In this document: one piece after another, positions 1 to 16,679 of the stretch
Numbering within the stretch: the first letter of the stretch is position 1
Layout: the number at the start of each line of letters is the position of its first letter
From: a virus
Length of the DNA stretch: 64,000 bases
Virus record (IMG/VR): IMGVR_UViG_3300037247_001118
Location: 1-64,000 of that record
Reading direction: 5' to 3' (one strand)
Program-made: the position numbers and the translations under genes
The notes under the pieces: model-generated
Databases searched by the model: none
What the model was told of the DNA's origin: nothing
What the model saw: the letters and a program-made list of their open reading frames with translations, nothing else

Positions 1-2
1 TT

Positions 3-1634
3 GTCAAAGTCTTCAACGCGTTCTTCAAGAACTGCCGCAGCCCCAAGATCGGGGGTGTCGGCTCTGTGGAGAAGTGCGAGGGCGCGGCCATGAAGGTCGC
101 CAACTCGGCGGTGAAGACGAAGGAGGTTTACATGGACCCAACCGACGAGTCCGTTACGCCTGCGCCCGATGACGAGTCCACGGAGGATGGCGAGAAGTGT
201 AGCGACGTGCCGATGTACGTAAAACCTGTCTACTTCGGTGGAGCCATCAGCTTCGACGACGTTGACAAGTACCGCGAGGCGCAGGAGTTTGACCAGAACA
301 TCGAAAGCCAGAAATGGACCTTCGACGAAATCTTCCGCAACATTATGGCACAGGAGCCGACGGAAGTGACGCTAGAGCAGAAGCTCGCACAGGTAAAGTC
401 CGCTGTTGATGAGTTCGCCGCTCGGTCGGAGGACCCGCCCGAGCACTGCAAGGAGACCGGCGGCCTAGTCGGCAGAGCGGTCGATGCGGCCAAGCGCCTG
501 CTCGGCGGCGACAAGGATGCTGCGCCTGAGCGCATCGGCTACGCCGAGTTCGGTGACGGCGGCAGCTTCGTCATCACGCGGGACAAGGAGACGGGCGCCC
601 TGCGGTGGACGGCATTCGTCACTAACAAGTTCAAGGACCGCGACGGCGAGATATTCTCCGAGGCCTCCCACCAGGAGTTCACGGACTGGGCCAACCGCAC
701 GAAGGCGTACTCAGTCCTCCGCCTGGTACACGTGCCCGGCTCCGAGATCGGCAAGGAAGATTTCACGGCCTACACCGACGGTTTCGTGATCTCCTCCGGC
801 ACGTTCAACGAGGGCATGGAGGACGTGGCCGAGTCGCTGGCAGCCTCTAAGGAGGCGTTGGGAATCAGCCACGGTTACTACTACAGATTGAAGGACCTCC
901 GAGACGATGTGTACCACCGGTACCGTCGCTTCGAGATCACAGTCACACCAGCGAGCAGAGCGGCAAACTCGTGGACCGATATCGAGTTCACGAAGGAAGC
1001 CATGAGAAAGGAGGTGCTTAACATGCCGCTTACAGACACGCAGAAGGAGTTCCTTACACAGCACCTAGGTAAGGAGCGAACCGCCAGTATCGAGGAGAAG
1101 GCCGCGACCTGGAGCAAGGAGCTCGAAGAGGATGGTATCGGCTTCAAGGAACTGGCCGACATTCTGGCTGGCACCAAGGAAGAGGCACCTGCCGGCGAGA
1201 AGCCTGCGGACGACCCGGCCGCAGACGACGATCCGGCAACCGACCCGCCCGCCACCAGCGAGAATGCCGACGACGACCCCGGTGCGGGGGACCCGCCGGC
1301 GGTGACCAAGGAGCTAGCGCCGCTAGCAGCGTTCATCGGTAGCGCGATTACTGAGGCTGTCAAGCCGATGCAGGAGCAGGTCGACGCTATCGCTGGCCAG
1401 GTCAAGGAGCTGTCGAAGTCGGACGACGACAAGGTCGCCGACAAGATGGCGCCGAAGACCAAGGCCGCTGCCGCTAACGGTGACCGCCCCACGGACGCCA
1501 AGGGCAACGTCATCGACGGCAAGGAGGCAGCCGAGAAGGGCGCCACGGATGGCCCCGAAGAGCCCGAGAGCTTGAAGCGTGCCCGCGAGTACGCTGACAT
1601 GATGACCGGAGCCGATAGGCTGCCGCAGGGTTAG
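3..1634 (+). CDS. Capsid maturation (prohead) protease with scaffold-like C-terminus, 5' partial
   Basis: The frame is open from the left edge, with strong GC at third codon positions, so it continues outside the window. A strong ribosome site (AAGGAGG, 120-126) precedes an in-frame ATG at 132, which could start a separate 500-residue protein. Numbered from that ATG, residues about 140-285 look like an XkdF/HK97-type prohead serine protease: candidate catalytic His200 (RLVHVPGS) and Ser246 (GISHGY), then the strand FEITVTPASRAANS, which matches the usual end of the family. The last 190 residues are acidic and Ala/Pro-rich with a predicted helix, as in scaffold domains removed during head maturation. 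It lies directly before the capsid gene, the usual position. The family is fairly sure, the catalytic residues are inferred, and the true start is open. Confidence 0.7.
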   Translation, partial: VKVFNAFFKNCRSPKIGGVGSVEKCEGAAMKVANSAVKTKEVYMDPTDESVTPAPDDESTEDGEKCSDVPMYVKPVYFGGAISFDDVDKYREAQEFDQNIESQKWTFDEIFRNIMAQEPTEVTLEQKLAQVKSAVDEFAARSEDPPEHCKETGGLVGRAVDAAKRLLGGDKDAAPERIGYAEFGDGGSFVITRDKETGALRWTAFVTNKFKDRDGEIFSEASHQEFTDWANRTKAYSVLRLVHVPGSEIGKEDFTAYTDGFVISSGTFNEGMEDVAESLAASKEALGISHGYYYRLKDLRDDVYHRYRRFEITVTPASRAANSWTDIEFTKEAMRKEVLNMPLTDTQKEFLTQHLGKERTASIEEKAATWSKELEEDGIGFKELADILAGTKEEAPAGEKPADDPAADDDPATDPPATSENADDDPGAGDPPAVTKELAPLAAFIGSAITEAVKPMQEQVDAIAGQVKELSKSDDDKVADKMAPKTKAAAANGDRPTDAKGNVIDGKEAAEKGATDGPEEPESLKRAREYADMMTGADRLPQG

Positions 1635-1672
1635 CCGACGCTCACATAAGAACGGAAGGAGGTACCATTCCA

Positions 1673-3118
1673 ATGACCACGGAAATCCTAGAAGCTCTGG
1701 CCGAAGCGCTGGGTCCCGCACTGGACAAGCAGCGCGAAGGTCAGAAGCACAGTGCCTCCGGGACGCCAATTTCAGTGGGCTACGCCCACGGCCCCGGTGG
1801 TCTCCTGACCTTCCCGGGTGTGGACCCTGCGGTGTTCCACACCATCATGGGGAATACGTCGATTCTCGGCATGCTCCCCACCACCCCGAGCCTCTACACT
1901 AACCCCACGTACTACACCATCACCGGTGTCCAGGACGTGAGCGGCAGCGAGGCAGACGGGAACTGCGATGCGGCTCCGACCGCTGGCCTGAAAAAGGCGT
2001 GCCTGACGACCTCCGTGTTCGGACGGTACAAGAGGGCGACCCCGGAGCTTGAATTGAACCGGGTCGGGCAGCGGATCGACCGCGCGGACCCGATAGACCT
2101 GACGCTGATCGGTTCGCCCATCCACGGCTCTGGCGTCTTCGCACAGGGCCCCGGCGACCCGTCCGTTCCCGGCGACCTCTTCGTCAACGAGGTCTCGCAG
2201 AAGATGTGGGAGCTGGGCGTGGCGATGCATCGTCTCCTGAGCCAGGAGCTCTGGATTGCGAACCCGCAGAACGATGCGGGCGAGCAGGGCTCCAAAAAGC
2301 AGATGACGGGCTTCGACGTTCTCATCAACACAGGCTACGTGGACGCCGAGACAGGCACCGCCTGCCCCTCGCTGGACTCATTCCTGCTCGACGCCAACTA
2401 CAAGCGCGTCGACGACGATGGCGCCGACCTCGTTGCCTGGGTTACGGCCCTGTACCACGAGATCAAGCGTCGTGCAGAGATGTCCGGTGTGATGCCGGTA
2501 CGGTGGGTGTTCGCCATGCGCCCGCAGCTCTTCTACGAGTTGACCGCCGTGTGGCCGTGTTCCTACTTGACCTATCGCTGCAACCTCAGTGGCAACGAGC
2601 GGATCAACGTCGATGCGCCGGAGCACATTGAGCTGCGCGATGCCATGCGTACCGGCAGGTATCTGCTGGTCGACGGCGAGAAGATTCCTGTTGTCCTTGA
2701 CGACGGGATTGCGGAAGAGGGCGATGCCGACAACGCGAACGTGCCCGCAGGGTGCTTCGCTACCGACATCTACCTGATCCCGATGTCTGTCATCGGCGGG
2801 CGCGCAGTCACCTTCCTGGAATACTTCAACTTCGACAACCCCGCACTCAAGGACGGTCTTGGCAACATGGTCCTGGGGAAGGTCGAGGGAGCGTTCCTCA
2901 CGGTGCCGCTACAGCTCAGGCAGTGCTTCTCCTACGAGACGAAGATCGAGCCGCGCCTAGTGCTGCGGACTCCGTGGCTGGCAGGGCGCCTACAGAACGT
3001 CCTGTACTGCCCGGTCCAGCACGAGAGGGACCCGTTCCCTGGTGGCGACTACCACGTCGATGGTGGACGGACGAGCAGGCCTGGCCCGAGCCTCTTCTCG
3101 ATCTGGCAGAGCGCGTAG
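1673..3118 (+). CDS. Major capsid protein
   Basis: A 481-residue protein starts at an ATG behind a strong site (GGAAGGAGG, 1654-1662). It follows the protease/scaffold gene, the standard place for the HK97-fold capsid subunit. I see no enzyme motif. It has the mix of beta-rich segments and long Gly/Pro/Asn loops expected of a capsid subunit, and a short charged N-terminal helix. The C-terminal 60 residues (after about 420) are rich in Arg, Gly and Pro. The assignment rests on order, size and composition rather than on a motif, so a related head protein is possible, but no other candidate is present. Confidence 0.72.
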   Translation: MTTEILEALAEALGPALDKQREGQKHSASGTPISVGYAHGPGGLLTFPGVDPAVFHTIMGNTSILGMLPTTPSLYTNPTYYTITGVQDVSGSEADGNCDAAPTAGLKKACLTTSVFGRYKRATPELELNRVGQRIDRADPIDLTLIGSPIHGSGVFAQGPGDPSVPGDLFVNEVSQKMWELGVAMHRLLSQELWIANPQNDAGEQGSKKQMTGFDVLINTGYVDAETGTACPSLDSFLLDANYKRVDDDGADLVAWVTALYHEIKRRAEMSGVMPVRWVFAMRPQLFYELTAVWPCSYLTYRCNLSGNERINVDAPEHIELRDAMRTGRYLLVDGEKIPVVLDDGIAEEGDADNANVPAGCFATDIYLIPMSVIGGRAVTFLEYFNFDNPALKDGLGNMVLGKVEGAFLTVPLQLRQCFSYETKIEPRLVLRTPWLAGRLQNVLYCPVQHERDPFPGGDYHVDGGRTSRPGPSLFSIWQSA

Positions 3119-3185
3119 AGCTAGTAACAATCACCGTGTTGGTGGGGAGGCGGCGGCCTCTCCCCAGCACGAGCAGGAGGAGAGA

Positions 3186-4127
3186 ATGGCTAGCCCGAAA
3201 GTCCTTATCACTGGAGGAGCCGGGTTCTTGGGACGCGGAGTTCTACGCCGCATCAAGCGTGGCGGGCTGGACTGGGACCCCATCGTATTCAGCAGGGATG
3301 AGACGAAGCAGGACGTGTGCCGACAGCAGTACCCATTCGCTAAGTACATCCTCGGCGATGTCCGCGATGCCGACCGCCTGACCGCTGCTATGGAGGGTGT
3401 GGATATCGTAGTCCACGCCGCGGCGCTGAAGTACATCCCGGAGGCCGAGCTCAACGCGGCCGAGTGCCTCGCTGTCAACATCGATGGCGCCCGCACGGTG
3501 GCCAACGCAGCGCTCCACGCGGGGGTACCTCGGGTCATCGGCATCTCGACCGACAAGGCCGTGCAGCCGGTCAATGTCTACGGCTGCTCCAAGATGGCGA
3601 TGGAGCGCCTGTTCGCCGAGATCTCCGGCTACGGTACCACCTTCACCTGTGTCCGATACGGCAACGTCATCGGCAGCACAGGCTCGGTCATCCCACTCTT
3701 CCGCCGGCAGTTCGCGGAGACGGGCACCGTCAAGGTGACGGATCCGAAGATGACACGTTTCTGGATGGGTGTGGACGAGGCTATCGACCTCATCCTTACC
3801 GGTCTCGAAGCGTCCCCCGGCTCGATAGCGATCCCGCTGGTGCGCGCGATGACATTGGTGGACACCGTGCGCGCCGCGGTGGGCGACGACGCTCCGATAG
3901 AGATCACCGGCACCCGCCCCGGCGAGAAGATGCACGAGGCGCTGCTGCACTACCAGGAGTCGGTGCGTGTGGTGCGACATAAGGATCATCTAGAGCTGCT
4001 ACCTGTAGGGCGCACGGGAGCATCCGCAGCGGGCAGCGATCCCTTCACGCTCGCATCGCACACACCGCACTATCGCATGGAGGTCGACGAGATGCGGCGG
4101 CTGATCGCTGACACTGAGGAGCTCTAG
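3186..4127 (+). CDS. NAD(P)-dependent sugar-nucleotide dehydratase/epimerase (PseB/FlaA1-like)
   Basis: A 313-residue extended short-chain dehydrogenase. The Rossmann nucleotide motif TGGAGFLG is at 9-16, the STDK segment at 121-124, and the catalytic pair Tyr132/Lys136 in VYGCSK. The segment around AAALKYIPEAE and the STDKAVQPVNVYG stretch resemble the inverting UDP-GlcNAc 4,6-dehydratases (PseB, FlaA1) more than GalE. That family makes 4-keto-6-deoxy sugars for protein or surface glycans. The ATG at 3186 is chosen because GGAGGAG stands just upstream; the longer frame from 3042 overlaps the capsid gene. It opens the sugar island and likely supplies an activated deoxy-sugar precursor. The exact substrate is not readable from sequence. 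Confidence 0.8.
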   Translation: MASPKVLITGGAGFLGRGVLRRIKRGGLDWDPIVFSRDETKQDVCRQQYPFAKYILGDVRDADRLTAAMEGVDIVVHAAALKYIPEAELNAAECLAVNIDGARTVANAALHAGVPRVIGISTDKAVQPVNVYGCSKMAMERLFAEISGYGTTFTCVRYGNVIGSTGSVIPLFRRQFAETGTVKVTDPKMTRFWMGVDEAIDLILTGLEASPGSIAIPLVRAMTLVDTVRAAVGDDAPIEITGTRPGEKMHEALLHYQESVRVVRHKDHLELLPVGRTGASAAGSDPFTLASHTPHYRMEVDEMRRLIADTEEL

Positions 4128-4137
4128 GAGGCGCCCG

Positions 4138-4368
4138 ATGACTGAGAGCACGATCAAGCTACTATTCGCTGGCGCGCTTGCGCTGGGAGGTCTCACCGCA
4201 ATGCTGGTGACGACGCTTGTGGGCATGAGCGCCGACTGGTCGGTCGCGCAGATCATGGCGGTAAACGTCGTGTTCTCTAACGTTGTGATGGCAGGCCTCG
4301 CCTTCTTCTTCGGTCACCAGAACGGCTACAAGAACGGGTACAAGAACGGGGGCTCGAAGCAGTCATGA
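4138..4368 (+). CDS. Small two-helix membrane protein
   Basis: A 76-residue protein with two hydrophobic segments (about 6-29 and 37-58) joined by a short polar turn, then a hydrophilic tail with the repeat NGYKNGYKNG and terminal Ser/Lys. The size and hairpin topology fit a holin or another small inner-membrane protein, but it sits in the sugar island, away from the lysin at 45 kb. It starts 10 nt after the dehydratase stop and its stop overlaps the next start (ATGA). Function unknown; holin is only one possibility. Confidence 0.65.
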   Translation: MTESTIKLLFAGALALGGLTAMLVTTLVGMSADWSVAQIMAVNVVFSNVVMAGLAFFFGHQNGYKNGYKNGGSKQS

Positions 4369-4991
4369 GCTGTCCAGCACATGACCTCGCCGCAAGCCGC
4401 AACTTCCTAGTGGCTGCTGACGTCGACCTCATCCGCGAGCTCGTTCAGCGACTGCGCAAGCAGGACCCTCGCGGGCGCTTGCAGGTCATAGACATCGGAG
4501 CGGGCAGCGGCACTACGGCGCTCTCTGTGCTGGCGGAGGAAAGTGACCGCATCACGATCACTACGATAGACAACGACGCCCGGGCGCTACAGTACACTAA
4601 GGCGGCCATCAGCTACTACGGTCACCTGCGCAACTGGCGCGGGCGCCAGAGCGACTCGGCGCGGGCCATCTACAATCACGGCGGACAGGACATCGACCTT
4701 CTACTGATAGACGCAGGACATACCTACAAGGAAGTCAGAGCCGATCTGGAGGCCTGGCTACCGCGGCTGCGCACCACCGGCTTCGTCTGGGTCCACGACT
4801 ATGGCGATCCGAGAGCGCTCGGGGTGAGGAAGTCCCCCGGCGTCAAGCGCGCTATCAACGAGCTGTTACGCCGGCGCGAGCTGAGCGTTGTCAAGATTGC
4901 CGGCCTCGGGTGGTCCGGCCAGCGGTATGTCGAGCAGGAGGAGAGGGTCGATGATAATCTGGGTACCAGGCGCTCGCGGACTACTCGGTAG
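4365..4991 (+). CDS. Class I SAM-dependent methyltransferase
   Basis: A 208-residue protein with the Rossmann SAM-binding motif VIDIGAGSGTT near residue 42, an acidic motif II (TTIDND) about 20 residues later, and DIDLLLIDAGHTYKEVRADLE, typical of the Methyltransf_24 group. It lacks the DPPY or PCQ motifs of DNA methylases, so a small molecule, a sugar or a glycan is the likelier target. It is coupled to its neighbours by an ATGA overlap upstream and a 41-nt overlap downstream. In the island it may O- or N-methylate a sugar; that role is inferred from context. Confidence 0.75.
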   Translation: MSCPAHDLAASRNFLVAADVDLIRELVQRLRKQDPRGRLQVIDIGAGSGTTALSVLAEESDRITITTIDNDARALQYTKAAISYYGHLRNWRGRQSDSARAIYNHGGQDIDLLLIDAGHTYKEVRADLEAWLPRLRTTGFVWVHDYGDPRALGVRKSPGVKRAINELLRRRELSVVKIAGLGWSGQRYVEQEERVDDNLGTRRSRTTR

Positions 4992-5751
4992 GGCGGTAGT
5001 CGAGGCAGCGGACACACGTAGGCATACAGTCATTGGCCCACCCCACAGCCGAGTTCCAATAGAGAATTGGCACCGCGTTCTTACGGGCTCCCCCGCTGCT
5101 TGGGCAGCGGAGCGCTCCGGCTCCGACTGGTCCGGACCCCCACTAGACGCTATCATCAACTGTGCTGGCATCCTGCCCGGACGTGGCTACCAAGAGACCA
5201 TCCTAACCAACGCCCTCGGCCCGCACAACCTCGCTCGCCTCGGCATCCGCCTCGTCCACATGAGCACCGACTGTGTGTTCTCCGGCCGCAAGTACCCCAC
5301 TAGCAATGGCTACGGGCTGGACTCCGGCCTGACGCCGGACCCGATAGACCTCTACGGCCGCACCAAGCTAGCCGGCGAGCCGAGCGGCGACCATGTGCTC
5401 GTCGTGCGCGGCAGCTTCATCGGCGAGGGTGCCGGTTTCCTCGGGTGGCTGCTGTCCGCGAAGGGCCAGGTAGACGCCTGGGAGCGCGCCCACTGGAACG
5501 GCACGAGCGTGGACATCATGGCCGAGCAGCTCGTCATCCTAGCGGAGGGGCGACGCACAGGCGTTGTCCACGTCGCATCGCCTACGGAGGTCACGAAGGC
5601 GTTCATGATAACGTACCTCAAGGAGCAGCTTGGCCTGCCCATCGAGCCGGTCGCCATCGCAGAGCCCGCCATCTGGCGCGTGCTCTGGCCGGACATCGAA
5701 GTGCCGCCGGTAGAGGATATGCTACACTGGCTGGTGGAGTCCATCCGATGA
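4951..5751 (+). CDS. RmlD-like dTDP-4-dehydrorhamnose reductase family protein
   Basis: A 266-residue short-chain dehydrogenase. The nucleotide motif GARGLLG is at 7-13, MSTDCVFSG surrounds residues 104-112, and the catalytic Tyr135/Lys139 lie in YGRTKLAGE. STDxVF(S/D)G and the YGxTKxxGE signature are characteristic of RmlD/SUBF reductases, which finish activated 6-deoxyhexoses such as rhamnose. The ATG at 4951 is preferred over the upstream frame because GAGGAG precedes it and the Rossmann strand begins at once (MIIWVPG). With the PseB-like gene it forms a sugar-nucleotide synthesis pair. Its stop overlaps the next start (ATGA). Confidence 0.78.
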   Translation: MIIWVPGARGLLGRAVVEAADTRRHTVIGPPHSRVPIENWHRVLTGSPAAWAAERSGSDWSGPPLDAIINCAGILPGRGYQETILTNALGPHNLARLGIRLVHMSTDCVFSGRKYPTSNGYGLDSGLTPDPIDLYGRTKLAGEPSGDHVLVVRGSFIGEGAGFLGWLLSAKGQVDAWERAHWNGTSVDIMAEQLVILAEGRRTGVVHVASPTEVTKAFMITYLKEQLGLPIEPVAIAEPAIWRVLWPDIEVPPVEDMLHWLVESIR

Positions 5752-6422
5752 GTGGCATAACCGTCGTCATCCCGGTCGGCCCCGCGCCACATCACCAACA
5801 GTGGCTGCATGAGTGCCTGGACAGCATGCGCGCCCAGACCCGCCAGCCGAACGAGGTGCTGCTCATCGACGACATGGCAGACCTGTCCCCGGAGCTGGTA
5901 CGCCACGATGCTGGCTGGCGCGTCTGGCGATCCCCTTGGCGGCTGGACGTGCCCAACGCCTTCAACGTCGGTGTGGGGCTGGCCCGCAACGACCTCGTAT
6001 TCATGGTCGGCGCCGATGACTGGCTGGAGCCGAATTGCCTTGAGCTCTGCATCACGGCCTGGGAGAAGAACAAGAATCGGGACGCCTACTACTATGTGGG
6101 CGTACGCTACACCGACGGCCGCGAAGATCAGACCGTACCCTGCAACGGAGCGATGGTCACGAAGGGGCTATGGCGGATGACCGGAGGCTTCCCTCCCGAG
6201 TCGGCGTCTGGCGCCTGTGACGCGGCTCTGATCTCGATCCTCATGAAGCACCACCCCAGACTGCTTATACCCGTAGCTGACGGTGTGCCGCTCTACAACT
6301 ATCGTGTCCATACTGAAAGCGACACGGGGGTACGAGGGGGGAGTTGGCAGGGGGTCATCTTGCCGACGAGGGACATCCTGACGCGGACCTGGGTACAGCC
6401 ACACTGGGGGCGAATGTGTTAG
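5748..6422 (+). CDS. Family 2 (GT-A) glycosyltransferase
   Basis: A 224-residue protein beginning with the GT2 strand ITVVIPVG, then EVLLIDD near residue 37 (nucleotide-sugar binding) and the DxD-type motif GADDWLEP near 85, which usually holds the metal and UDP or dTDP sugar. The segment KGLWRMTGGFPPE matches the acceptor-side loop common in this family. The ATGA start overlaps the RmlD-like stop. It likely transfers one sugar in the pathway built by this island; donor and acceptor are unknown. The length is short, which is usual for phage GT2 enzymes with only the catalytic core. Confidence 0.78.
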   Translation: MSGITVVIPVGPAPHHQQWLHECLDSMRAQTRQPNEVLLIDDMADLSPELVRHDAGWRVWRSPWRLDVPNAFNVGVGLARNDLVFMVGADDWLEPNCLELCITAWEKNKNRDAYYYVGVRYTDGREDQTVPCNGAMVTKGLWRMTGGFPPESASGACDAALISILMKHHPRLLIPVADGVPLYNYRVHTESDTGVRGGSWQGVILPTRDILTRTWVQPHWGRMC

Positions 6423-6447
6423 CATATAGTATGCAGGAGGAGTTGCC

Positions 6448-7131
6448 GTGCAGCTAGCCATTCTAATCACTGCCTACCTACCGCCCGGCGGAGAGTGCCG
6501 GCAAGCCGTCGCTATCAAGACGGTAGAGAGCTGGAAGAAGCACTTGAGATTCGACGGTGATCTACACGTTCATGTTGCGGACGACGGGACACCTCCCAGC
6601 ATGGAACAGGTATACGGTCAAGCCTTTTGGAGGCACCTCGTGGGATCGTGGGCGACATTCAGCTACAGCCGACAGGAGCGCCGGGGCGTCGGTGCCTCCC
6701 TGAATCGCGGATTTGATCTATGCAATCGCCAGACCCCGTTTGTGCTATACGCGGTGGATGATTGGGAGCTAGTGGCTCCCCTCAACGTCACTCCGTGGGT
6801 GGATGTCCTGGCGACGGAGCAGAGCATCGGCTGCATTCGGTTGGGGGCGGTCAATCCGTTCATGCGTAATGGTGAACTACTACGTTTCCTGTCCGCCGGC
6901 TACGCTATTCGCTGGGAGCGATACTCCTACTACTGGAGCCAGCGCCCGGCCGTGTATCATTCCCGATTCAGAGACGCCTACGGGCCGTTTCCAGAGAACG
7001 TTGATGCGCTAGTGGTAGACCGGCAATACAACGAGCATATATGCGCCTCCGATGGCCCTGACGTTGTGCTGGTACTACATGAACCGTGGATCCATCAGGA
7101 ATCTATTGAGTTAGGGGACATTACCCCATGA
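6448..7131 (+). CDS. GT2-like glycosyltransferase
   Basis: A 227-residue protein starting at a GTG 8 nt after AGGAGG. It begins with a hydrophobic strand (LAILITAYLPP), has VADDGTPP near residue 47 and a DDWE motif near 100, as in GT-A enzymes. The following gene has the same layout (LTCDRPKER, ADDGSDPE, EDDWELLRPFD), so the two look like diverged copies. A TATAGT hexamer (6425-6430) lies in the 25-nt gap before it but lacks a good -35 partner. Its stop overlaps the next ATG. Substrate unknown. Confidence 0.66.
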   Translation: MQLAILITAYLPPGGECRQAVAIKTVESWKKHLRFDGDLHVHVADDGTPPSMEQVYGQAFWRHLVGSWATFSYSRQERRGVGASLNRGFDLCNRQTPFVLYAVDDWELVAPLNVTPWVDVLATEQSIGCIRLGAVNPFMRNGELLRFLSAGYAIRWERYSYYWSQRPAVYHSRFRDAYGPFPENVDALVVDRQYNEHICASDGPDVVLVLHEPWIHQESIELGDITP

Positions 7132-7862
7132 TCGCTATCGTGCTGCTAACCTGCGACCGCCCGAAGGAGCGGGAGGAGTACGCGTTCAAGACGCTCGACG
7201 CGCTCAAGAATCTTTCAGCCGCCGGCGACGACCTCTGGATGCACATAGCCGATGATGGCTCCGATCCTGAGTTCCGCGAGGAGATGGTGAGACGTGCCCG
7301 TGAGCAGTACGGCGACCGCACGAGCGTCTCGAACAGTGAGGAGCGCGGCTATGGAGGAAATTACAATCTAGCGTCGCAAGCGGTTCACCAGGCTGCGGAC
7401 CTTGTACTGCCACTGGAGGATGACTGGGAACTCTTGCGCCCGTTTGATCTGGCGCCCATAGCGACCGCACTTCGAGCCGGCGTGTTCCGCTGTGTCCGAA
7501 TGGCATACATCGGCTATACAGAAGAGCTGCGCGGGACATTTATCTGGAGCGGGGGTGTTCACTGGCTGGCACTGGATCCGGCCTCCCCTGAGCGCCATGT
7601 CTTCTCGGGCGGACCGCGTTTGGAGACAGTGGCTTTCGAGCGTGACGTGGGGCTCTGGCCGGAGAACCTGAACCAAGGACAGACTGAGATGGATGTTGCC
7701 AGCAGAGCAGAAGCACGAACTGGCGTGGCGTGGCCAGTAGAGCTTATCAAACCGACCGGTGATCTGTTCGCTCACATCGGAACGGCCAAGGCCGGCGAGG
7801 ATGAACCAGGCGCTAGAGGCAGTGCGTCATCAATGCAGGGGGAGGAGGCTTCCAATGACTGA
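7128..7862 (+). CDS. GT2-like glycosyltransferase, paralogue of the preceding gene
   Basis: A 244-residue protein with the GT-A features AIVLLTCDRPKER at the N-terminus, HIADDGSDPE near 40 and the DxD-type EDDWELLRPFD near 100. The middle (FIWSGGVHWLALDP) and the Glu/Asp-rich segment around LNQGQTEMDV resemble the acceptor half of these enzymes. The last 25 residues are Gly/Ser/Glu-rich and probably disordered; they overlap the start of the next gene by 8 nt. Start and stop are both overlapped, so translation is likely coupled. Donor and acceptor unknown. Confidence 0.66.
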   Translation: MIAIVLLTCDRPKEREEYAFKTLDALKNLSAAGDDLWMHIADDGSDPEFREEMVRRAREQYGDRTSVSNSEERGYGGNYNLASQAVHQAADLVLPLEDDWELLRPFDLAPIATALRAGVFRCVRMAYIGYTEELRGTFIWSGGVHWLALDPASPERHVFSGGPRLETVAFERDVGLWPENLNQGQTEMDVASRAEARTGVAWPVELIKPTGDLFAHIGTAKAGEDEPGARGSASSMQGEEASND

Positions 7863-8952
7863 TACACCAGCCGAGCCCGTCTATGTCGGAGGCCACTACG
7901 GTCTTGAGGTCAGACATGAGAACGGTGTCATCGTCAAGCGCGCCACCTTCGATGGCGTGCGCGAGGTGGATGGGCACTTGTGGGAGAACAAAAAGGCGAT
8001 TGCCAATGAGGCACGAATGCTCAAGCGATTGGCTGGTACTGGGATTGCTCCTGAGCTGATCGAGGAGCACGAGGATTATATCGTAGAGGAGTATATCGAG
8101 GCGGCGCCATGTGAAGATGGGGAGCAGTTCCGTCGGAACATCGCTCGTCTACTGTGGACCCTGCGCTGCCTTGAGATCCATCACGGGGACATGGTTAGAC
8201 AGAATATGGTCGTGCGTACCAATTCGGTGCCGATTGCGCTCGACTGGCATGGGGCGCACTTTTTCAATGAACCGTGTTTGCCGACGCGCATCGTCCCGGA
8301 TATTCATCTTCTCCTACCGTGGGCTGCTACGGTACCGTCGGAGATGCACCTCGCGCCGGATTATCCGCGAGTCATCCGTCGATGGCACGCTGTCTGTGGC
8401 AGTCTCTATACCGCCCCCAGTGGGGGACTGATTGGGAACATACACCAAGGACTTACGGACAGGACGCTGCTCGATCTCGGCTGTTTCCAGGGAGACTTCT
8501 GTGCGCTGGCGGCCGCCGAGGGGATGCACGCTACCGGTGTCGATGGCGGCGGATTCCGAACCGGCGAGGACTCGATCCAGATTGCGCGGGCGCTATGGGC
8601 AGGCCAGAGTGGCCGCATGGCCTTCAAGAAGATGGATATCATGGACGTTGATGATTTCCGCTATGATGCAGTTCTGCTCTTCTCGACCTGGCCCTATATC
8701 GTACAGACGCATGGAAGGGCTGCTGCGCTGGACTTGCTAAAACGCATCATGCAGCAATTATCGCGGAAGCGGCCGAATCCTGGCAAACTGTTCTTTGAAA
8801 CGCAACTCTACGGAGACGGACCGGGCCCCGACTTCCTCCGTACCGAGGACGACATCCAAGCAATGCTCGCAACCGTTGGTACTCCGAAGGCGCTAGTCAG
8901 GACACATGTAACTAATCGCCCGGCACACCGAACAGTCTGGGAGGTCACATGA
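7855..8952 (+). CDS. Kinase-like domain fused to SAM methyltransferase
   Basis: A 365-residue protein. Residues 1-140 have small-molecule kinase (APH/Bud32-like) signatures: VKRA with Lys28, Glu52, and the catalytic loop HGDMVRQN (His110, Asp112, Asn117) followed by IALDWHG (Asp130) in place of the usual DFG-type strand. From about 195 the protein changes to a class I methyltransferase with LLDLGCFQGDF (motif I), TGVDGG and MDIMDVDD. The ATG at 7855 has GGAGGAGG upstream; the longer frame from 7759 overlaps the previous gene. It could phosphorylate and methylate a sugar or lipid-linked acceptor. The pairing is clear; the reaction is inference. Confidence 0.7.
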   Translation: MTDTPAEPVYVGGHYGLEVRHENGVIVKRATFDGVREVDGHLWENKKAIANEARMLKRLAGTGIAPELIEEHEDYIVEEYIEAAPCEDGEQFRRNIARLLWTLRCLEIHHGDMVRQNMVVRTNSVPIALDWHGAHFFNEPCLPTRIVPDIHLLLPWAATVPSEMHLAPDYPRVIRRWHAVCGSLYTAPSGGLIGNIHQGLTDRTLLDLGCFQGDFCALAAAEGMHATGVDGGGFRTGEDSIQIARALWAGQSGRMAFKKMDIMDVDDFRYDAVLLFSTWPYIVQTHGRAAALDLLKRIMQQLSRKRPNPGKLFFETQLYGDGPGPDFLRTEDDIQAMLATVGTPKALVRTHVTNRPAHRTVWEVT

Positions 8953-9623
8953 TCTTTATCACTGGTCTGGGCAAGTGCGGGACTTCGTTCGTCGCCGAAT
9001 GCTTTCTAAAGCTAGGACTCGATCCCAGTGGGAGTTTCGATCTGACTATGAATGCCGGGTGGGAACACGTCCAGACACATGTCCTGTGTCGAGAGCTTCT
9101 CTTCGGCCCGACGCAGGCTCGATTCGTAACGTGCCGGCGAGCCGAGAAGTTGATGAAAAAGCCGATCTCTAAACGGGATCCGCGACCACTGAGACAGCGC
9201 CTATTGGAGTCCCTGCCCCCGCCAACCTGCGTGGTCAAGTCCCCATTGATCTTGCCACTACTAGAGCTGTGGATACATGCGGGGCTGGTAAGTCGCATTG
9301 TCTGGCCTCAGCGTCCGCTGGCACAGATTGCACGCTCGTGGGCGGCATGGGATCCGCGTGGCCTTCGGGGCATTTACACTGTCGGAGAAGGTGAAGACCC
9401 GGCGGAAATCCAGCGGGCGGCGCTTGACTATGGACGGCAGGCATGTGATCGCCACCACATCCCAGTATGCACGTTCCGCTTTCCCGAGGTACTCACTCCA
9501 GGAACCGAGGATGCTGAACTATTCCTAGGGGAGTTGATGTTCACTACGGGAAAGGGACGCAGTGAAGTAGTCGCGGCCGTGGCCGCTGTGAGTCGACCAG
9601 AGACGATGCGCGTTGGGAGGTAA
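8949..9623 (+). CDS. Sulfotransferase-like P-loop protein
   Basis: A 224-residue protein beginning IFITGLGKCGTSFVAE, a P-loop (residues 6-14) of the type that binds the 5'-phosphosulfate group of PAPS in sulfotransferases. CVVKSPLILPLLELW and the following RIVWPQRPLAQIARSW resemble the 3'-phosphate-binding helix with its Arg and Ser. These are the two signatures of the family. It lies between a kinase-methyltransferase and a glycosyltransferase, so a sugar hydroxyl is a sensible acceptor. An ATGA overlap couples it to the upstream gene. An unrelated small NTPase is possible but less likely. Confidence 0.62.
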   Translation: MIFITGLGKCGTSFVAECFLKLGLDPSGSFDLTMNAGWEHVQTHVLCRELLFGPTQARFVTCRRAEKLMKKPISKRDPRPLRQRLLESLPPPTCVVKSPLILPLLELWIHAGLVSRIVWPQRPLAQIARSWAAWDPRGLRGIYTVGEGEDPAEIQRAALDYGRQACDRHHIPVCTFRFPEVLTPGTEDAELFLGELMFTTGKGRSEVVAAVAAVSRPETMRVGR

Positions 9624-9624
9624 C

Positions 9625-12321
9625 ATGACGATTAAGGTCTTTCTACACCCCGACTTCACTGGTACGGACAAGGGCGATGGTGGCATTAGGCGCGTTGTTG
9701 AGGCACAGCGTCGGCACCTTCCAGATCACGGGATCGAGCTCGTCGACGATGTCCAGAAAGCGGATCTGATTGCTACACACATCCTTGTTGACAAGCCAAT
9801 CCTGCGAACCGACACACGTGTACCTCTCGTCGTCCACAATCACGGCCTGTACTGGACCGAGTACGACTGGGATGAGGGCATCAAGCCCGAATACGCGAAT
9901 TGGTGCATCAAGGTCAACGCTGAGTGTCTGAAGGCGATCCGCATGGCGGATGCGGTTACGAGTCCCAGCGAGTGGGTAGCACAGGCGCTCCGCCGTAGCA
10001 GTCTACGTCGGGTCGTTCCTATCGGGCATGGTATCGAGGCGAAGGAGTGGCCGGCGCCACGACCGCGGAAGCAGGCCAGTTACGTGCTGTGGAACAAGAC
10101 GCGACCCGATGCTGTTTGCGACCCGGAGCCGGTCAACATCCTCGCCAAACGCGTGCCCGGCGTGAAGTTCGTCACCACCTTCGGTGATAAGAGTCTAGCG
10201 AATGTCGAGGTGACCGGCCGCGTTCCGTACGAGCGTGCCAAGCAGTACGTGCGCAAAGCTAGCGTCTATCTCTGCACACCACGCGAGACCTTCGGCATCG
10301 GCACCATCGAGGCGATGGCTGCCGGCGTGCCGATCCTCGGCTGGCGCTGGGGTGGTCAGGCGGAGTTTATCGAGCACAAGGTCACTGGCTGGCTCTCCAA
10401 GCCCGGCGATTACGACGACCTCATGCGCGGGCTCTCCTACTGTCTGGAGCATCGCGTTAGGATGGGGCAGGCCGCCCGCAAGGTGGCGTTGGCCCAATAT
10501 CAGTGGAAGGACATCATTGGTGCCTATGCTGACCTGTACAGGGAGACGCTTGAGGCCACGCGCCGTGAGCATCCGAAGATATCCGTCATCCTCCCAGCCT
10601 ATAAGCTGGCCGAGCATCTCCCTGCTGCGATTGCGTCCGTACGAGCTCAGACCGAGCAGGATTGGGAGTGCATCATCGTCGACGACGCCTCCCCGGACAA
10701 GTGCGGCGAGATTGCCGATGCGGCTGCTGCGGATGATCCACGATTCAAGGTCGTTCACAATGAGGAGAATCTGCACGTAGCCGGAACACTCAATGCCGGC
10801 GCAGCGGTGTCAACAGGTCGGTACCTTCTGCCCCTTGACGCCGACAATACCCTCCCTCGCCGAACGCTGGAATATCTCGCGCGAGCGCTTGACAAGGACC
10901 GCGCTATTGACATCGCGTACGGAAACGTCCTATTCCGAGATCTCGATGGGAAGGAATGGCATTCGGGCTGGCCACCCGAGTTCGTGGCAGAGCAGCAGGT
11001 GCTGAAGTTGACGAAGCCTGGCCAGATACCTGCTAACCTCATCCCCTCGACGGCACTATTCCGCCGCCGCGTCTGGGAACTCACGGGGGGTTGGCGACGG
11101 CGCCGCCGGAACGGAGAGGATCCCGACTTCTGGATGCGTGCGACTAGCTACGGATTCGTGGCTAAGCGCGTGACCGAGGCGGATACGTTGGTGTACCTGA
11201 ACCGGCCGGACTCTCTGAGCCGAACCGAAACCCTTACCGATTGGACCACATGGTTTCCTTGGGCACGCCAACTGGCACCGCCGCCGTCGGCAATTGACTT
11301 CGATGGAGAGGTGCTCGTCCCGTCCTACGAGCCGCTGCTGGTGAGCGTCATTATTCCCGTCGGGCCCGGGCACGAGGAGTTGGTGATCGATGCGCTCGAC
11401 AGCGTTGACGCACAGACCTTCCGCCTGTGGGAGTGCATCGTGGTCAACGATACTGGCAAGCCGTTGCGCTATACGCCGTCATGGGCGCGAGTCATCAACA
11501 CGCCCGGCAAGGTAGGTGTGGGTGCGGCGCGCAACCGCGGCATCGCCGCGTCGAAAGCGGCACTCTTCCTGCCGCTGGACGCTGACGATACGCTTGAGCC
11601 GGACGCGCTCACTTACCTGTACGCCGCCCACAAAGAGGTCGGCGGCGTTGTCTACTCCGACTGGTACGAGCGGTGGGAGGGCCAGCCTGTCAAGGTCTGG
11701 CAGACTCCCGAGTACGACGCCAAGGACCTCCTGGCTAAGGGCTGCATCCACGCCATCACAGCGCTGTACGTGAAGGCGGACTGGGAACGCGTCGGTGGCT
11801 TCGATGAGAAGGTGCCTGCATGGGAGGACTGGGACTACCAGCTCAAGATGGCCGAGATCGGCGTCTGCGGTACTCGCATTCCGCAGCCGCTCTTTACCTA
11901 CCGCAAGGACGAGGGGATGCGCCGGGAAGACAACTACGCGCGCTTCCAGGAGAACAAGGAGGTACTGGGCAAGAAGTGGGCCAAGTACGTAGACGGAAAG
12001 GAGACACTCATGGCATGCAGAAGTTGCTCGAAGAAGAAGGTGAAGGCTCTCGCCGGCGACGTTTCCGCAGGGCCGACAGCCGCTCAGCGAGTGCGGGCAG
12101 CTACCGCGAACGGCGGCGCGGGCGCTGAGGGGGGCGAGTATGCTATCATAGAGTACGTGGGGCGCAAGCGCGGATCACAGAACTTCCGTGGCCCCAGCGG
12201 GACTCAATACCGGTTCGCCGCCGACGGTCCCGACCAGGTCAAGTACGTGCTCGCGGCAGACGCGGCCTACTTCCTGGCCAAGATAGACTTCCGCCGAGGC
12301 GAAGTTCGACAGGAGGCATAG
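9625..12321 (+). CDS. Three-module glycosyltransferase (GT4-GT2-GT2) with a small C-terminal domain
   Basis: An 898-residue protein. Residues 1-310 are a GT-B enzyme of GT4 type: NHGLYWTEYDWDEG, SPSEWVAQAL, and the donor-site pattern ETFGIGTIEAMAAG with paired Glu. Residues about 315-560 are a GT2 domain (ISVILPAYK, IIVDDAS, LPLDADN). Residues about 570-795 are a second GT2 domain (VSVIIPVGPG, IVVNDTG, LPLDADDT, and WEDWDYQ for the catalytic end). The last 103 residues begin MACRSCSKKK at an in-frame ATG (12010) behind AAGGAGA and end in a domain with YRFAADG and LAADAAYFLAKIDF, similar in style to small phage head-adaptor proteins. The start at 9625 has GGGAGG upstream. It could build a short oligosaccharide on its own. 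Confidence 0.82.
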   Translation: MTIKVFLHPDFTGTDKGDGGIRRVVEAQRRHLPDHGIELVDDVQKADLIATHILVDKPILRTDTRVPLVVHNHGLYWTEYDWDEGIKPEYANWCIKVNAECLKAIRMADAVTSPSEWVAQALRRSSLRRVVPIGHGIEAKEWPAPRPRKQASYVLWNKTRPDAVCDPEPVNILAKRVPGVKFVTTFGDKSLANVEVTGRVPYERAKQYVRKASVYLCTPRETFGIGTIEAMAAGVPILGWRWGGQAEFIEHKVTGWLSKPGDYDDLMRGLSYCLEHRVRMGQAARKVALAQYQWKDIIGAYADLYRETLEATRREHPKISVILPAYKLAEHLPAAIASVRAQTEQDWECIIVDDASPDKCGEIADAAAADDPRFKVVHNEENLHVAGTLNAGAAVSTGRYLLPLDADNTLPRRTLEYLARALDKDRAIDIAYGNVLFRDLDGKEWHSGWPPEFVAEQQVLKLTKPGQIPANLIPSTALFRRRVWELTGGWRRRRRNGEDPDFWMRATSYGFVAKRVTEADTLVYLNRPDSLSRTETLTDWTTWFPWARQLAPPPSAIDFDGEVLVPSYEPLLVSVIIPVGPGHEELVIDALDSVDAQTFRLWECIVVNDTGKPLRYTPSWARVINTPGKVGVGAARNRGIAASKAALFLPLDADDTLEPDALTYLYAAHKEVGGVVYSDWYERWEGQPVKVWQTPEYDAKDLLAKGCIHAITALYVKADWERVGGFDEKVPAWEDWDYQLKMAEIGVCGTRIPQPLFTYRKDEGMRREDNYARFQENKEVLGKKWAKYVDGKETLMACRSCSKKKVKALAGDVSAGPTAAQRVRAATANGGAGAEGGEYAIIEYVGRKRGSQNFRGPSGTQYRFAADGPDQVKYVLAADAAYFLAKIDFRRGEVRQEA

Positions 12322-12323
12322 AC

Positions 12324-12542
12324 ATGGCTAGCGTGACCGTAGACTTTGAGGACAAGGACACAGTGGCAATCCGCATCGACGACAGCGGCTTCTTCGGCTT
12401 GGCCACAGACAAGTTCGATGTCGAGTTCGAGGAGCGGGGGATGCAAGGCGGTGCCGTTACCGTTGCCGAGCTGAGCCTCCGTCCAGCTACCGCCCGTGCG
12501 CTTTTCCTCCGCCTTGCCGAGGCGCTCACAGAGGAAGTGTAG
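12324..12542 (+). CDS. Small conserved-style phage protein, unknown
   Basis: A 72-residue acidic protein (MASVTVDFEDKD...) with alternating strands and a C-terminal helix (PATARALFLRLAEALTEEV). No known motif. It follows the large glycosyltransferase by 2 nt, with AGGAGG upstream of its ATG, and directly abuts the next gene. It opens a run of small genes between capsid and tail tube where head-completion and connector proteins usually lie; a structural role is only positional inference. Confidence 0.6.
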   Translation: MASVTVDFEDKDTVAIRIDDSGFFGLATDKFDVEFEERGMQGGAVTVAELSLRPATARALFLRLAEALTEEV

Positions 12543-12851
12543 ATGGGCATCGAGCAAGCCATCCTCATCGGACTTGCCGCGTGGCGCCTGACGGCTCTTC
12601 TCTCCTATGAGCGGGGTCCCTTCGACGTATTCGTACGACTGCGCACCCTGCTCGGCTTCGAGCACGACGACGAAGGGCGTCCCGACTCGTGGCCGAGCGG
12701 AGTGCTGCGAGACGTGATCGCCTGCCCCTGGTGCCTCGGCCTCCCGATGGCCGCTGTAGCGTTCGGCCTCTGGCAGGCCGTGCCGCTCGCCGTCATCGTA
12801 CTGGCCGCCGCGACGGTGGTCGTGGCTGTGGAGAGGTGGACGAACTCATGA
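12543..12851 (+). CDS. DUF1360-like small membrane protein
   Basis: A 102-residue protein with the pattern of DUF1360: an N-terminal AAWRLTALLSYERGPFDVFVRLR segment split by the conserved ERGPFD, then DVIACPWCLGLPMA with CxxC (61 and 64), followed by a long hydrophobic stretch (about 66-95) ending ERW. DUF1360 proteins occur in phages and Firmicutes and have no established function. The two Cys may bind metal or form a disulfide near the membrane. It begins right after the previous stop and overlaps the next start (ATGA). Confidence 0.72.
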   Translation: MGIEQAILIGLAAWRLTALLSYERGPFDVFVRLRTLLGFEHDDEGRPDSWPSGVLRDVIACPWCLGLPMAAVAFGLWQAVPLAVIVLAAATVVVAVERWTNS

Positions 12852-13009
12852 CGTCGAAAGTAACCCTGTGGGAGTTGATAAGTAGGCCGCCCTATCCTTC
12901 TGCGGTCATCTCCGACCCGCCGAGCGGTAGCCACATGGTAACGAGCATCTACGTGGACAGTGACAAAAAGCTAGTGATCGCATACAGCGATATTCCGAGA
13001 GGAGACTGA
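12848..13009 (+). CDS. Very small protein, unknown
   Basis: A 53-residue frame starting at an ATG overlapping the DUF1360 stop. The sequence has a helix (LWELISRPPYP) and a C-terminal pair of strands (SIYVDSDKKLVIAYSD). The latter resembles the tails of small phage structural proteins, but I recognise no family. The tight coupling, and the next gene starting 3 nt after its stop, support a real gene. Confidence 0.5.
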   Translation: MTSKVTLWELISRPPYPSAVISDPPSGSHMVTSIYVDSDKKLVIAYSDIPRGD

Positions 13010-13012
13010 CCT

Positions 13013-13336
13013 ATGGCCATCGCAACGTTGACCATAGACCCAGGCGCAGCGGCTCTGACACCTAATGAGCATGTTGCGGCGATCAACTCAGCGACTGCTG
13101 TGATTGACCGAGCAAGTTCTGTAGACCCGGCCGCCAGACCGATTGCGCCTGGCGAGATAACTATTGCCGAGTTAGCGAGTGCAGCGGCCAAGGGCAACTT
13201 GGACGCCATGCCCGACGTGGATCGCGGCTATATTCAGACTCGTCCGGTGGCCACTAGCGGCGATTTCAAGGTCATCGCGCTCAAGAGGACATCAGTCGGA
13301 CTGGTCGAGGTCGAGTACGACGACGTCGCCGTCTAG
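13013..13336 (+). CDS. Hypothetical protein in the head-tail connector region
   Basis: A 107-residue protein with AGAGGAG before its ATG. It is Ala-rich and helical in the middle (EHVAAINSATAVIDRAS, IAELASAAAKGNLDAM) and ends in strands (GDFKVIALKRTSVGLVEVEYDDV). No recognisable motif. Position after the capsid gene and before the 418-residue protein suggests a connector or head decoration role, by order only. Confidence 0.58.
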   Translation: MAIATLTIDPGAAALTPNEHVAAINSATAVIDRASSVDPAARPIAPGEITIAELASAAAKGNLDAMPDVDRGYIQTRPVATSGDFKVIALKRTSVGLVEVEYDDVAV

Positions 13337-13354
13337 GGTATTGGAGTTGTTCTG

Positions 13355-14611
13355 ATGGCTAGAGCAGAGACAAAGACGAAGCTCCCCCTCGACCGCTGGG
13401 CGCAGATTGTCGGCATCAATCCGATGCACTTCAACGGCGTCTACGTCCGCGCTCCCACAACTTGTGCCGAACCGTGGCTCCAATTCCCGTACCAGACCGC
13501 CGACCGCGTGAGCCGTGAGGAGGTGGCGATTGCCATCGCGCACGCTGAGGCCATGTGCGAGCGGTTCCTCCGATACCGACTGCTCCCCACATGGGAGACC
13601 GACGAGTGGCACGAGAGCATCCGGCCGAATCTGCCCGAGCTCCACAACATCAGCGTCAGCGATCTGCGAGGGTATTCGCAGACGGTGCAGGCCAAGCACG
13701 GACACTTCCTCTCAGGAGGAATCCGAGCGTCGACGCTCATTGAGGCGGACACCGCCGTCGCATACACCGACCCGGACGGCGACAGCTACGACGAGGTCGC
13801 TACGGTCACCGTCACGGTAGATGTGGGACAGAGCGGCTGCGAGCTGCGCGTCTACTTCCCCGTCTCCAACACCATGGTAGCCACCGGAGGCGAGGACCAG
13901 TGGGAGATCAAGCCCATCAGCGTCTCGGTCAGTGGCACGACCGCGACCATTACCTTCCGGCGCGAGCAGGCAGTCCTGCCGCAGCTACAGGTAGACCTGG
14001 TGCCGCCGACGGACGACAGCCACCTTCGCGGTGTGGACGGCGCAGACGCTGCCAACTTCCTTGACGAGGTCGATGTCTACCGCGTCTACAACGACCCGCA
14101 GACACAGGCCACATTCCTGTGGGAGCCGTTCGAGTGCGACGACGCTGCGCTAGGCTCGTATATAGCGCAGACGGGGTTCCTGATGATACGCGACGATCCG
14201 CGGCTGAGCCGTGTTGGCTACCGCGCTGGCACATGGGACTCTGCGACCTCAGCGTTCGTAGCGGTGGAGTGGGCACGCCAGCGGTCGCCGGACATCGTGC
14301 GGCTCTGGTACTACGCAGGCCTGCGCACCAAGAACCTTGACTGTCCGACGGTGGCGATGGATCCCGACTGGGAGCGCACCGTCGCCTACTTCGCGGCGGC
14401 GCTGCTGGACCGCCCCATTTGCGAGTGCAACAACGTCCAGGCGTGGGTGGCGCACTGGCAGCGCGACCTGGCGATTGCCGGCGAGGAGGAGGGGCTATCC
14501 ATCTCTCCCGCCGATCTAGACAGCGAGTTCGGAACACGACGCGGAGCGGTCGCAGCATGGCGGCGCGTGATCGGCGAGGACGGCGCGGTAGGGCATGGAG
14601 TGTCCCCATAG
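13355..14611 (+). CDS. Putative head-tail connector/structural protein
   Basis: A 418-residue protein, the largest between the capsid and tail tube genes. The N-terminal 90 residues are helical with VSREEVAIAIAHAEAMCERFL, reminiscent of the start of head-completion adaptors. The middle (about 130-230) is a beta domain rich in Thr/Val, and the C-terminal third has helices and a Cys cluster (RPICECNNVQAW). No enzyme motif was seen. The position where adaptor and stopper genes occur supports a virion role. A family name cannot be given. Confidence 0.6.
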   Translation: MARAETKTKLPLDRWAQIVGINPMHFNGVYVRAPTTCAEPWLQFPYQTADRVSREEVAIAIAHAEAMCERFLRYRLLPTWETDEWHESIRPNLPELHNISVSDLRGYSQTVQAKHGHFLSGGIRASTLIEADTAVAYTDPDGDSYDEVATVTVTVDVGQSGCELRVYFPVSNTMVATGGEDQWEIKPISVSVSGTTATITFRREQAVLPQLQVDLVPPTDDSHLRGVDGADAANFLDEVDVYRVYNDPQTQATFLWEPFECDDAALGSYIAQTGFLMIRDDPRLSRVGYRAGTWDSATSAFVAVEWARQRSPDIVRLWYYAGLRTKNLDCPTVAMDPDWERTVAYFAAALLDRPICECNNVQAWVAHWQRDLAIAGEEEGLSISPADLDSEFGTRRGAVAAWRRVIGEDGAVGHGVSP

Positions 14612-14619
14612 GATGCGTC

Positions 14620-14799
14620 ATGTACGCCCAGATCAGCCTACGCTCTCATGTTGCCAAAGGCTCGGCGAGCTTTCTGGCCGCAGCGGTAACTCTGGCGATG
14701 GCTCAGGAGTGGGCCACGTGGGCGTTGGCACAGCGCAAGTGGTGGAAGCTGATCCCTGCCTACGTCCTGGCCACCTTCGCCCTTTTCGAGGCGCACTAA
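14620..14799 (+). CDS. Small membrane-associated protein
   Basis: A 59-residue frame with a hydrophobic, Ala/Trp-rich sequence: KGSASFLAAAVTLAMAQEWATWALAQ followed by KLIPAYVLATFALFEAH, giving one or two possible membrane segments. The ATG at 14620 is the last in a longer frame that overlaps the preceding gene in another phase; the short version is preferred because coding begins only after the upstream stop at 14611. No function assigned. Confidence 0.48.
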   Translation: MYAQISLRSHVAKGSASFLAAAVTLAMAQEWATWALAQRKWWKLIPAYVLATFALFEAH

Positions 14800-14837
14800 G
14801 TCTGGATCCGGGTCGAGACGATTGCGGGGTGGCGTAG

Positions 14838-15134
14838 ATGAGACAGGCCAGACATACCGACGACAAGGGCCGCATCCATGTCGTGCTCCTACCTGACGAT
14901 GCACCCGACAGCCACGCCGCATTGGGCATTCCGGTCGGCCCACCCTCGCTGAAGTCGCTGGGGTTGCCGGAGGAAATCGAGACGCGCCTACACAACCAGC
15001 TCGTCGCCCGACGCATCCTGACGGCAGCCGACGCGAAGGCACACCGAACCGACGTTTTCGGCGCCTTGCAGAAGGCGCTATCAGTGGATATCAACCGGGT
15101 CATAACGTGCTATAATGAGGATGCAACCGAATAG
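14838..15134 (+). CDS. Hypothetical protein before the tail tube gene
   Basis: A 98-residue protein. The middle is helical (LGLPEEIETRLHNQLVARRILTAADAKAHRTD) and preceded by a proline-rich segment (GIPVGPPSLKSL), a pattern seen in small head-tail or tail-completion proteins. No motif decides it. Its 3' end contains an extended -10 element (TGCTATAAT) that may serve the next gene. Confidence 0.58.
   Translation: MRQARHTDDKGRIHVVLLPDDAPDSHAALGIPVGPPSLKSLGLPEEIETRLHNQLVARRILTAADAKAHRTDVFGALQKALSVDINRVITCYNEDATE
15108..15116 (+). promoter_or_regulatory. Extended -10 promoter element before tail tube gene
   Basis: The sequence TGCTATAAT is a consensus extended -10 (TGnTATAAT). No good -35 hexamer lies 17 nt upstream, but extended -10 promoters tolerate that. 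The tail tube start is 49 nt downstream, after AAGGAGG. The same nonamer recurs at 60860. Extra transcription of the abundant tube protein would make sense; that is inference. Confidence 0.45.
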
Positions 15135-15164
15135 CATACACCCTCAGAAGGAGGTTACCTAGAC

Positions 15165-16661: not shown

Positions 16662-16679
16662 TGGGAAAGGTAGAGGTGT

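Follow-up and report, generated by a model that had tools for sequence, protein, structure and literature searches.

In phage lambda, the protease C carries the scaffold protein Nu3 as its C-terminal part. The two genes, C and nu3, overlap (PMC11739229). Mycobacteriophages such as Che8 encode glycosyltransferases and carry glycans on capsid and tail tube, as passages of PMC12619734 and PMC11256854 relate from Freeman et al. 2023, and WbdD is the kinase-methyltransferase that caps an O-antigen (PMC3482155). Here we analysed a stretch of viral DNA, referred to as the window, which corresponds to bases 1-64000 of a 72,893-base IMG/VR virus record (IMGVR_UViG_3300037247_001118), and particularly an island of glycan-related genes at 3186-12321, located between the capsid gene and the connector position. 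Decoration of the virion is the most likely reading of this island and rests on its genomic context. In the fuller form considered here, to which we give about even confidence, the island is a virion-glycosylation module of the head operon, the core enzyme of which contains a nested gene with two products and docks on the head. The locus resembles that of mycobacteriophages by its phage-encoded glycosyltransferases, thought or shown there to glycosylate capsid and tail proteins, and differs from it by a capsid-adjacent operon, a clade-wide occurrence, its own genes for a nucleotide sugar, a core enzyme of GT4-GT2-GT2 type and a fused domain with a putative internal initiation of its own. Virion glycosylation as such is already known, and the architecture represents a new form of it; no description of this clade, or of a glycosyltransferase gene in which a head gene is nested, was found in the open-licence literature, most subscription papers and preprints lying outside the search.

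The last gene of the island (9625-12321) encodes the core enzyme, in which the GT4-GT2-GT2 organisation first proposed was recovered by Pfam. Its C-terminal ~100 residues form a separate domain, with which this enzyme ends in 27 different sequences, and the junction between the enzyme and this small domain bears a conserved MxCxxC or MGCGC motif. An in-frame start codon occurs at the junction in 26 of the 27 sequences and is accompanied in 22 of these 26 by a Shine-Dalgarno match of at least 5 nucleotides, a length of match found at 4.3% of the other start codons within the same open reading frames (ORFs) and, when one random internal methionine per ORF was taken as a control, in 0-3 of 26. 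In the window, this start is the ATG at 12010, with AAGGAG six bases upstream, and it opens an eleventh reading (12010-12321) absent from the ten-gene list of the original prediction. Since conserved residues could by themselves create Shine-Dalgarno-like sites, the eight codons upstream of the junction start were recoded with the synonymous codons of each ORF; about 9 of 26 matches were expected against 22 observed (P about 1e-12, a value assuming an independence of the sequences that is only partly true). After thinning at 60% identity, a match of at least 5 nucleotides was retained in 21 of 24 sequences. These results show that the internal start site is under selection. In three relatives (L116, L117 and L118), the fused copy of the domain is devoid of the cysteine motif and free genes starting with MGCGC and encoding the same domain directly follow the enzyme gene, two of them in L117, indicating that the cysteine motif belongs to the free protein. 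These free genes also speak indirectly for a separate small product of the nested gene.

The gene 9625-12321 thereby shares with lambda C/Nu3 the organisation of a head-operon enzyme gene with an in-frame internal start, preceded by a selected Shine-Dalgarno site, for a separate small C-terminal protein, the latter being a predicted product in our case. Its full translation would give the polyglycosyltransferase ending with the beta domain, and initiation at the internal site would yield the small protein by itself, its N-terminus bearing the MxCxxC motif; we therefore speak of one gene with two putative products, a free small protein and an enzyme bearing the same protein as a tail. The comparison with lambda concerns the mechanism and not kinship. 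The enzyme is here a glycosyltransferase instead of a protease, and its small counterpart consists of a beta domain and a cysteine motif, any scaffold role being putative. By analogy with lambda, the free small protein may be a head component, and the shared domain would probably direct the enzyme to the site occupied by the free protein during head assembly, glycosylation then taking place on the particle. The nested fusion suggests in this way how glycosylation could be confined to the phage's own particle amid the host proteins of the cell.

The association of the core enzyme with the head genes extends well beyond the window. The nearest relative (L003), with a capsid protein 93% identical, has the same island apart from local rearrangements: GTb is at another place, and the kinase-methyltransferase gene is separated from GTc by two unassigned genes. 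Two island genes of this relative without Pfam matches (L003:15440-16575) look on visual inspection like virion decoration proteins. Further phages of the same layout were retrieved with the PseB-like protein and GTc as queries and, as such searches select for sugar genes, the search was repeated with the capsid protein only. This capsid-only scan, together with the window and one contig from a genome bin, gave 22 non-redundant loci that extend as far as the connector. In each of the 22, a glycosyltransferase gene lies between the HK97-fold capsid and the connector; it encodes the full-length GT4-GT2-GT2 enzyme in 21 loci and, in the remaining one (L085), a shorter glycosyltransferase that bears the same C-terminal domain as a fusion. 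A clean empty site was sought among these relatives without success, since every capsid relative reaching the connector has a glycosyltransferase there; the idea that close relatives might lack the island cleanly is thus not borne out, none with enough sequence being devoid of a capsid-adjacent glycosyltransferase gene.

The other genes are much more variable. Among the 22 loci, GTc is found in 13, PseB in 11, MT1 in 8, GTb in 7, RmlD and GTa in 6 each and the kinase-methyltransferase in 2, and the protein encoded at 8949-9623 is limited to the window (L003 also has it but ends before the connector). The islands of relatives contain additional genes for a GHMP kinase, a DegT aminotransferase, a C-methyltransferase, a formyltransferase, PIG-L, GT10-like and radical SAM proteins. 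On the other hand, the distances between capsid proteins are correlated with those between glycosyltransferase cores (Mantel rho 0.49; permutation maximum 0.26). This co-divergence, together with the variability of the other genes, indicates that the glycosyltransferase core is an old resident and that the sugar-pathway genes are exchangeable; combined with the arrangement conserved over a wide clade, it strongly supports the earlier proposal of a link with virion structural genes. Phage protein glycosylation, known from few cultured phages, here appears to be an ancient trait, linked to the capsid, within a diverse lineage of uncultured phages, in which exchangeable sugar pathways could serve as a changing coat. 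A NUMOD4/HNH homing endonuclease gene was also observed within one island (L045:17948-18520), and it is possible that this endonuclease is an agent of island gene exchange.

Taken as a whole, the clade could possess a head-docked polyglycosyltransferase, with a small head-operon gene nested in frame, a domain that is both free and tethering, a particle glycosylated in place and a glycan varied by swaps of sugar genes, a scheme that we advance tentatively and with somewhat less than even confidence. Several observations weigh against virion glycosylation by a head-docked enzyme. The clade is known through its genes and the acceptor protein is not readable from them; no signature of a lipid-independent protein O-glycosyltransferase was identified; the small domain, the structure model of which is good over residues 41-96, has no family match and no convincing structure match in the PDB, so its placement in the head is a guess; in one relative (L007:2622-6135), the genes of PseB, RmlD, GTa and GTb are found not after the capsid but between the terminase and the portal; and four relatives with an in-frame TGA at the junction indicate that the fusion is not universal. 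A GINS fold, the top PDB match of the small domain, was rejected (E 0.07).

These four relatives bear on the alternative that survives best, according to which virion proteins are glycosylated as in mycobacteriophages, the internal start makes a small head-operon protein, and the fused domain has no targeting role, the fusion being a tolerated by-product. It accounts for the same genomic context and start-site selection data as head docking, and the four relatives separate enzyme and domain by the TGA yet keep the enzyme. Conversely, the enzyme of L116-L118 has retained its own copy of the domain despite the free copies that follow it, which would be unexpected if the fusion were useless, and we consider this by-product explanation unlikely, although deserving serious attention. 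In the four relatives (L072:21107, L077:16186, L086:12248 and L096:18962), an in-frame TGA closes the glycosyltransferase ORF at the position of the conserved junction cysteine, and beyond it the reading frame extends into the same domain. In 4 of 4 cases, this TGA is followed 12-22 nucleotides downstream by a short GU-loop hairpin, which was detected at 2.8% of 786 TGA stops elsewhere, by a criterion set after the hairpins had been seen. The TGA could correspond to selenocysteine insertion or readthrough; no Rfam match to a selenocysteine insertion sequence (SECIS) was obtained in L096 and L072, the two searched, and the candidates for a selenocysteine tRNA were discarded as ordinary tRNA-Leu and tRNA-Glu.

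An action on the host surface glycan during infection, leading to superinfection exclusion or seroconversion, was also considered, as GtrB-like enzymes of O-antigen conversion are among the PHROG matches of the GT2 domains and the island encodes a small membrane protein (4138-4368). However, neither a flippase nor a polymerase was seen among the ten genes, the island is part of a late head gene series, no homologue of the membrane protein was detected outside L003 and the glycosyltransferase core co-diverges with the capsid, making such a function very improbable. Glycosylation of phage DNA bases against restriction, an activity of phage glycosyltransferases presented as well known in a passage of PMC12619734, is scarcely credible here, given that the genes belong to the head operon and not to the replication genes, that Pfam scans of ~35 genes outside the island revealed ordinary DNA methyltransferases (MT-A70, C5, N4/N6) and no base-hypermodification enzyme, and that the island domains resemble enzymes of polysaccharides and teichuronic acid.

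The features of the locus are given in Table 1. The coordinates and single-operon layout of the original prediction were confirmed: 3186-12321 is filled by ten ORFs of the plus strand whose ends overlap, several by ATGA-type overlaps, or are separated by gaps of at most 25 nucleotides. No promoter-like or terminator-like site was found on the plus strand in the 1500-16700 region scanned, which therefore looks like one transcription unit that leads from the capsid gene to those of the connector and tail. The gene just upstream of the island (1673-3118) had no family match in profile searches; its AlphaFold model, computed from a 25-sequence alignment of relatives (mean predicted local distance difference test, pLDDT, 74), has HK97-fold phage capsids as top Foldseek matches in the PDB (E 1e-10) and identifies it as an HK97-fold capsid gene. 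The position of the island between capsid and connector genes is consequently supported by this model on the capsid side and by position and conservation on the connector side, where 13355-14611 has no PHROG match.

Table 1. Features of the capsid-to-connector region, with window coordinates and the evidence for each
Feature	Position	Strand	Evidence
Major capsid protein, HK97 fold	1673-3118	+	AlphaFold model and Foldseek against PDB
PseB/FnlA-type UDP-N-acetylglucosamine (UDP-GlcNAc) 4,6-dehydratase	3186-4127	+	Pfam Polysacc_synt_2 E 2e-74; PDB 2gn4 E 1e-62
Small membrane protein	4138-4368	+	Hydrophobic segments in sequence; homologue detected only in L003
S-adenosylmethionine methyltransferase MT1	4365-4991	+	Methyltransf_24 E 3e-16; present in 8/22 islands
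RmlD-type nucleotide-sugar reductase	4951-5751	+	RmlD_sub_bind E 3e-13; PDB dTDP-4-dehydrorhamnose reductase E 2e-9
GT2 glycosyltransferase GTa	5748-6422	+	PF00535 E 7e-16
GT2-like protein GTb	6448-7131	+	Homology to GTc
GT2-type glycosyltransferase GTc	7128-7862	+	Weak Pfam GT2; PF00535 above cut-off in one-genome search; in 13/22 islands
Kinase-like then methyltransferase domain	7855-8952	+	Weak matches: Bud32-like E 5e-4, methyltransferase E 1e-4
Protein with P-loop-like N-terminus (sulfotransferase in the original prediction)	8949-9623	+	Found only in window and L003
GT4-GT2-GT2 polyglycosyltransferase with C-terminal beta domain, 898 residues	9625-12321	+	Pfam GT4 and two GT2
Internal Shine-Dalgarno site AAGGAG	11998-12003	+	Sequence; selection test
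Nested in-frame gene, 103 residues, starts MACRSC, beta domain	12010-12321	+	Conserved Shine-Dalgarno site and start; free copies in L116-L118; model
Conserved small protein after island, phrog_781	12543-12851	+	PHROG match, conservation
Conserved gene at the connector position, bounding the island on the right	13355-14611	+	Position and conservation

The first genes of the island, which for the most part encodes sugar-active or methyl-transferring enzymes, are likely related to the supply of a nucleotide sugar. The product of 3186-4127 significantly matches the profile and solved members of the PseB/FnlA dehydratase family, its nearest PDB match by phmmer being a Helicobacter-type PseB (UDP-GlcNAc C6 dehydratase), followed by FnlA-like and CapE enzymes. 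The family assignment of the PseB-like label is thereby retained, whereas the score is below the PseB equivalog cut-off (TIGR03589, 262 bits vs 408) and also below that of FnlA, the product of the enzyme being predicted. The RmlD-like reductase and methyltransferase labels agree with the Pfam matches of Table 1. From their enzyme families, the dehydratase and the reductase look like a supply of a 6-deoxy-N-acetylhexosamine (6-deoxy-HexNAc) nucleotide sugar, in which host UDP-GlcNAc would be turned into UDP-6-deoxy-HexNAc; the set does not correspond to a complete pseudaminic-acid route. GTa, GTb, GTc and the GT4-GT2-GT2 enzyme would then assemble a short sugar chain, attached to a particle protein that is translated from the same transcript, and the methyltransferase and the kinase-methyltransferase would decorate or cap it.

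Regarding the transfer genes, the proposal of three small GT2-type enzymes holds for GTa and GTc by Pfam, GTb having no profile match and owing its GT2-like label solely to its homology to GTc. Both halves of the kinase-methyltransferase are weakly supported (Table 1), and homologues of this protein occur in several other islands. Like WbdD, it would join kinase-like and methyltransferase domains within a glycan gene cluster; WbdD is its top PDB profile match, with a non-significant E-value of 0.09 that covers the methyltransferase half only, and the kinase domain comes first here. The protein encoded at 8949-9623 has no family match in Pfam, PHROGs, NCBIfam and PDB and none in one-genome searches with two sulfotransferase families (PF13469 and PF00685), and its N-terminal ITGLGKCGTSF motif is the sole hint at a sulfotransferase. 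A true Sulfotransfer_3 protein is encoded in the island of another relative (L090), and the two proteins are unrelated, with no match between them. In the original prediction of an island that makes, activates, transfers, methylates and sulfates a glycan, the making, transfer and methylation steps remain reasonable and sulfation has no profile support in the window.

No detectable relative of the capsid protein was found in GenBank phage records, against ~80 IMG/VR contigs with one, and by capsid sequence the lineage L003-L118 is a large phage lineage without members among GenBank named phages. Similarly, no close phage record was found for the kinase-methyltransferase or the 8949-9623 protein. 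A kinship of the terminase with those of Streptomyces and Mycobacterium phages was rejected as weak (~31% identity at best among the matches listed). Host assignment from capsid matches in genome bins was abandoned, as these matches are phage-like contigs, the bins that contain them belong to unrelated phyla, and one of the matches recurs in two bins with an unchanged capsid identity. Start and end of the record (window 1-653 and record 72238-72893) match at 93% identity, as if the assembly had merged two strains of a circularly permuted genome. Farther downstream, a collagen-like tail fibre gene is directly followed by a methyltransferase-GT2 fusion (phrog_13126; window 26114-28926), which may constitute a second, tail-directed glycosylation unit.

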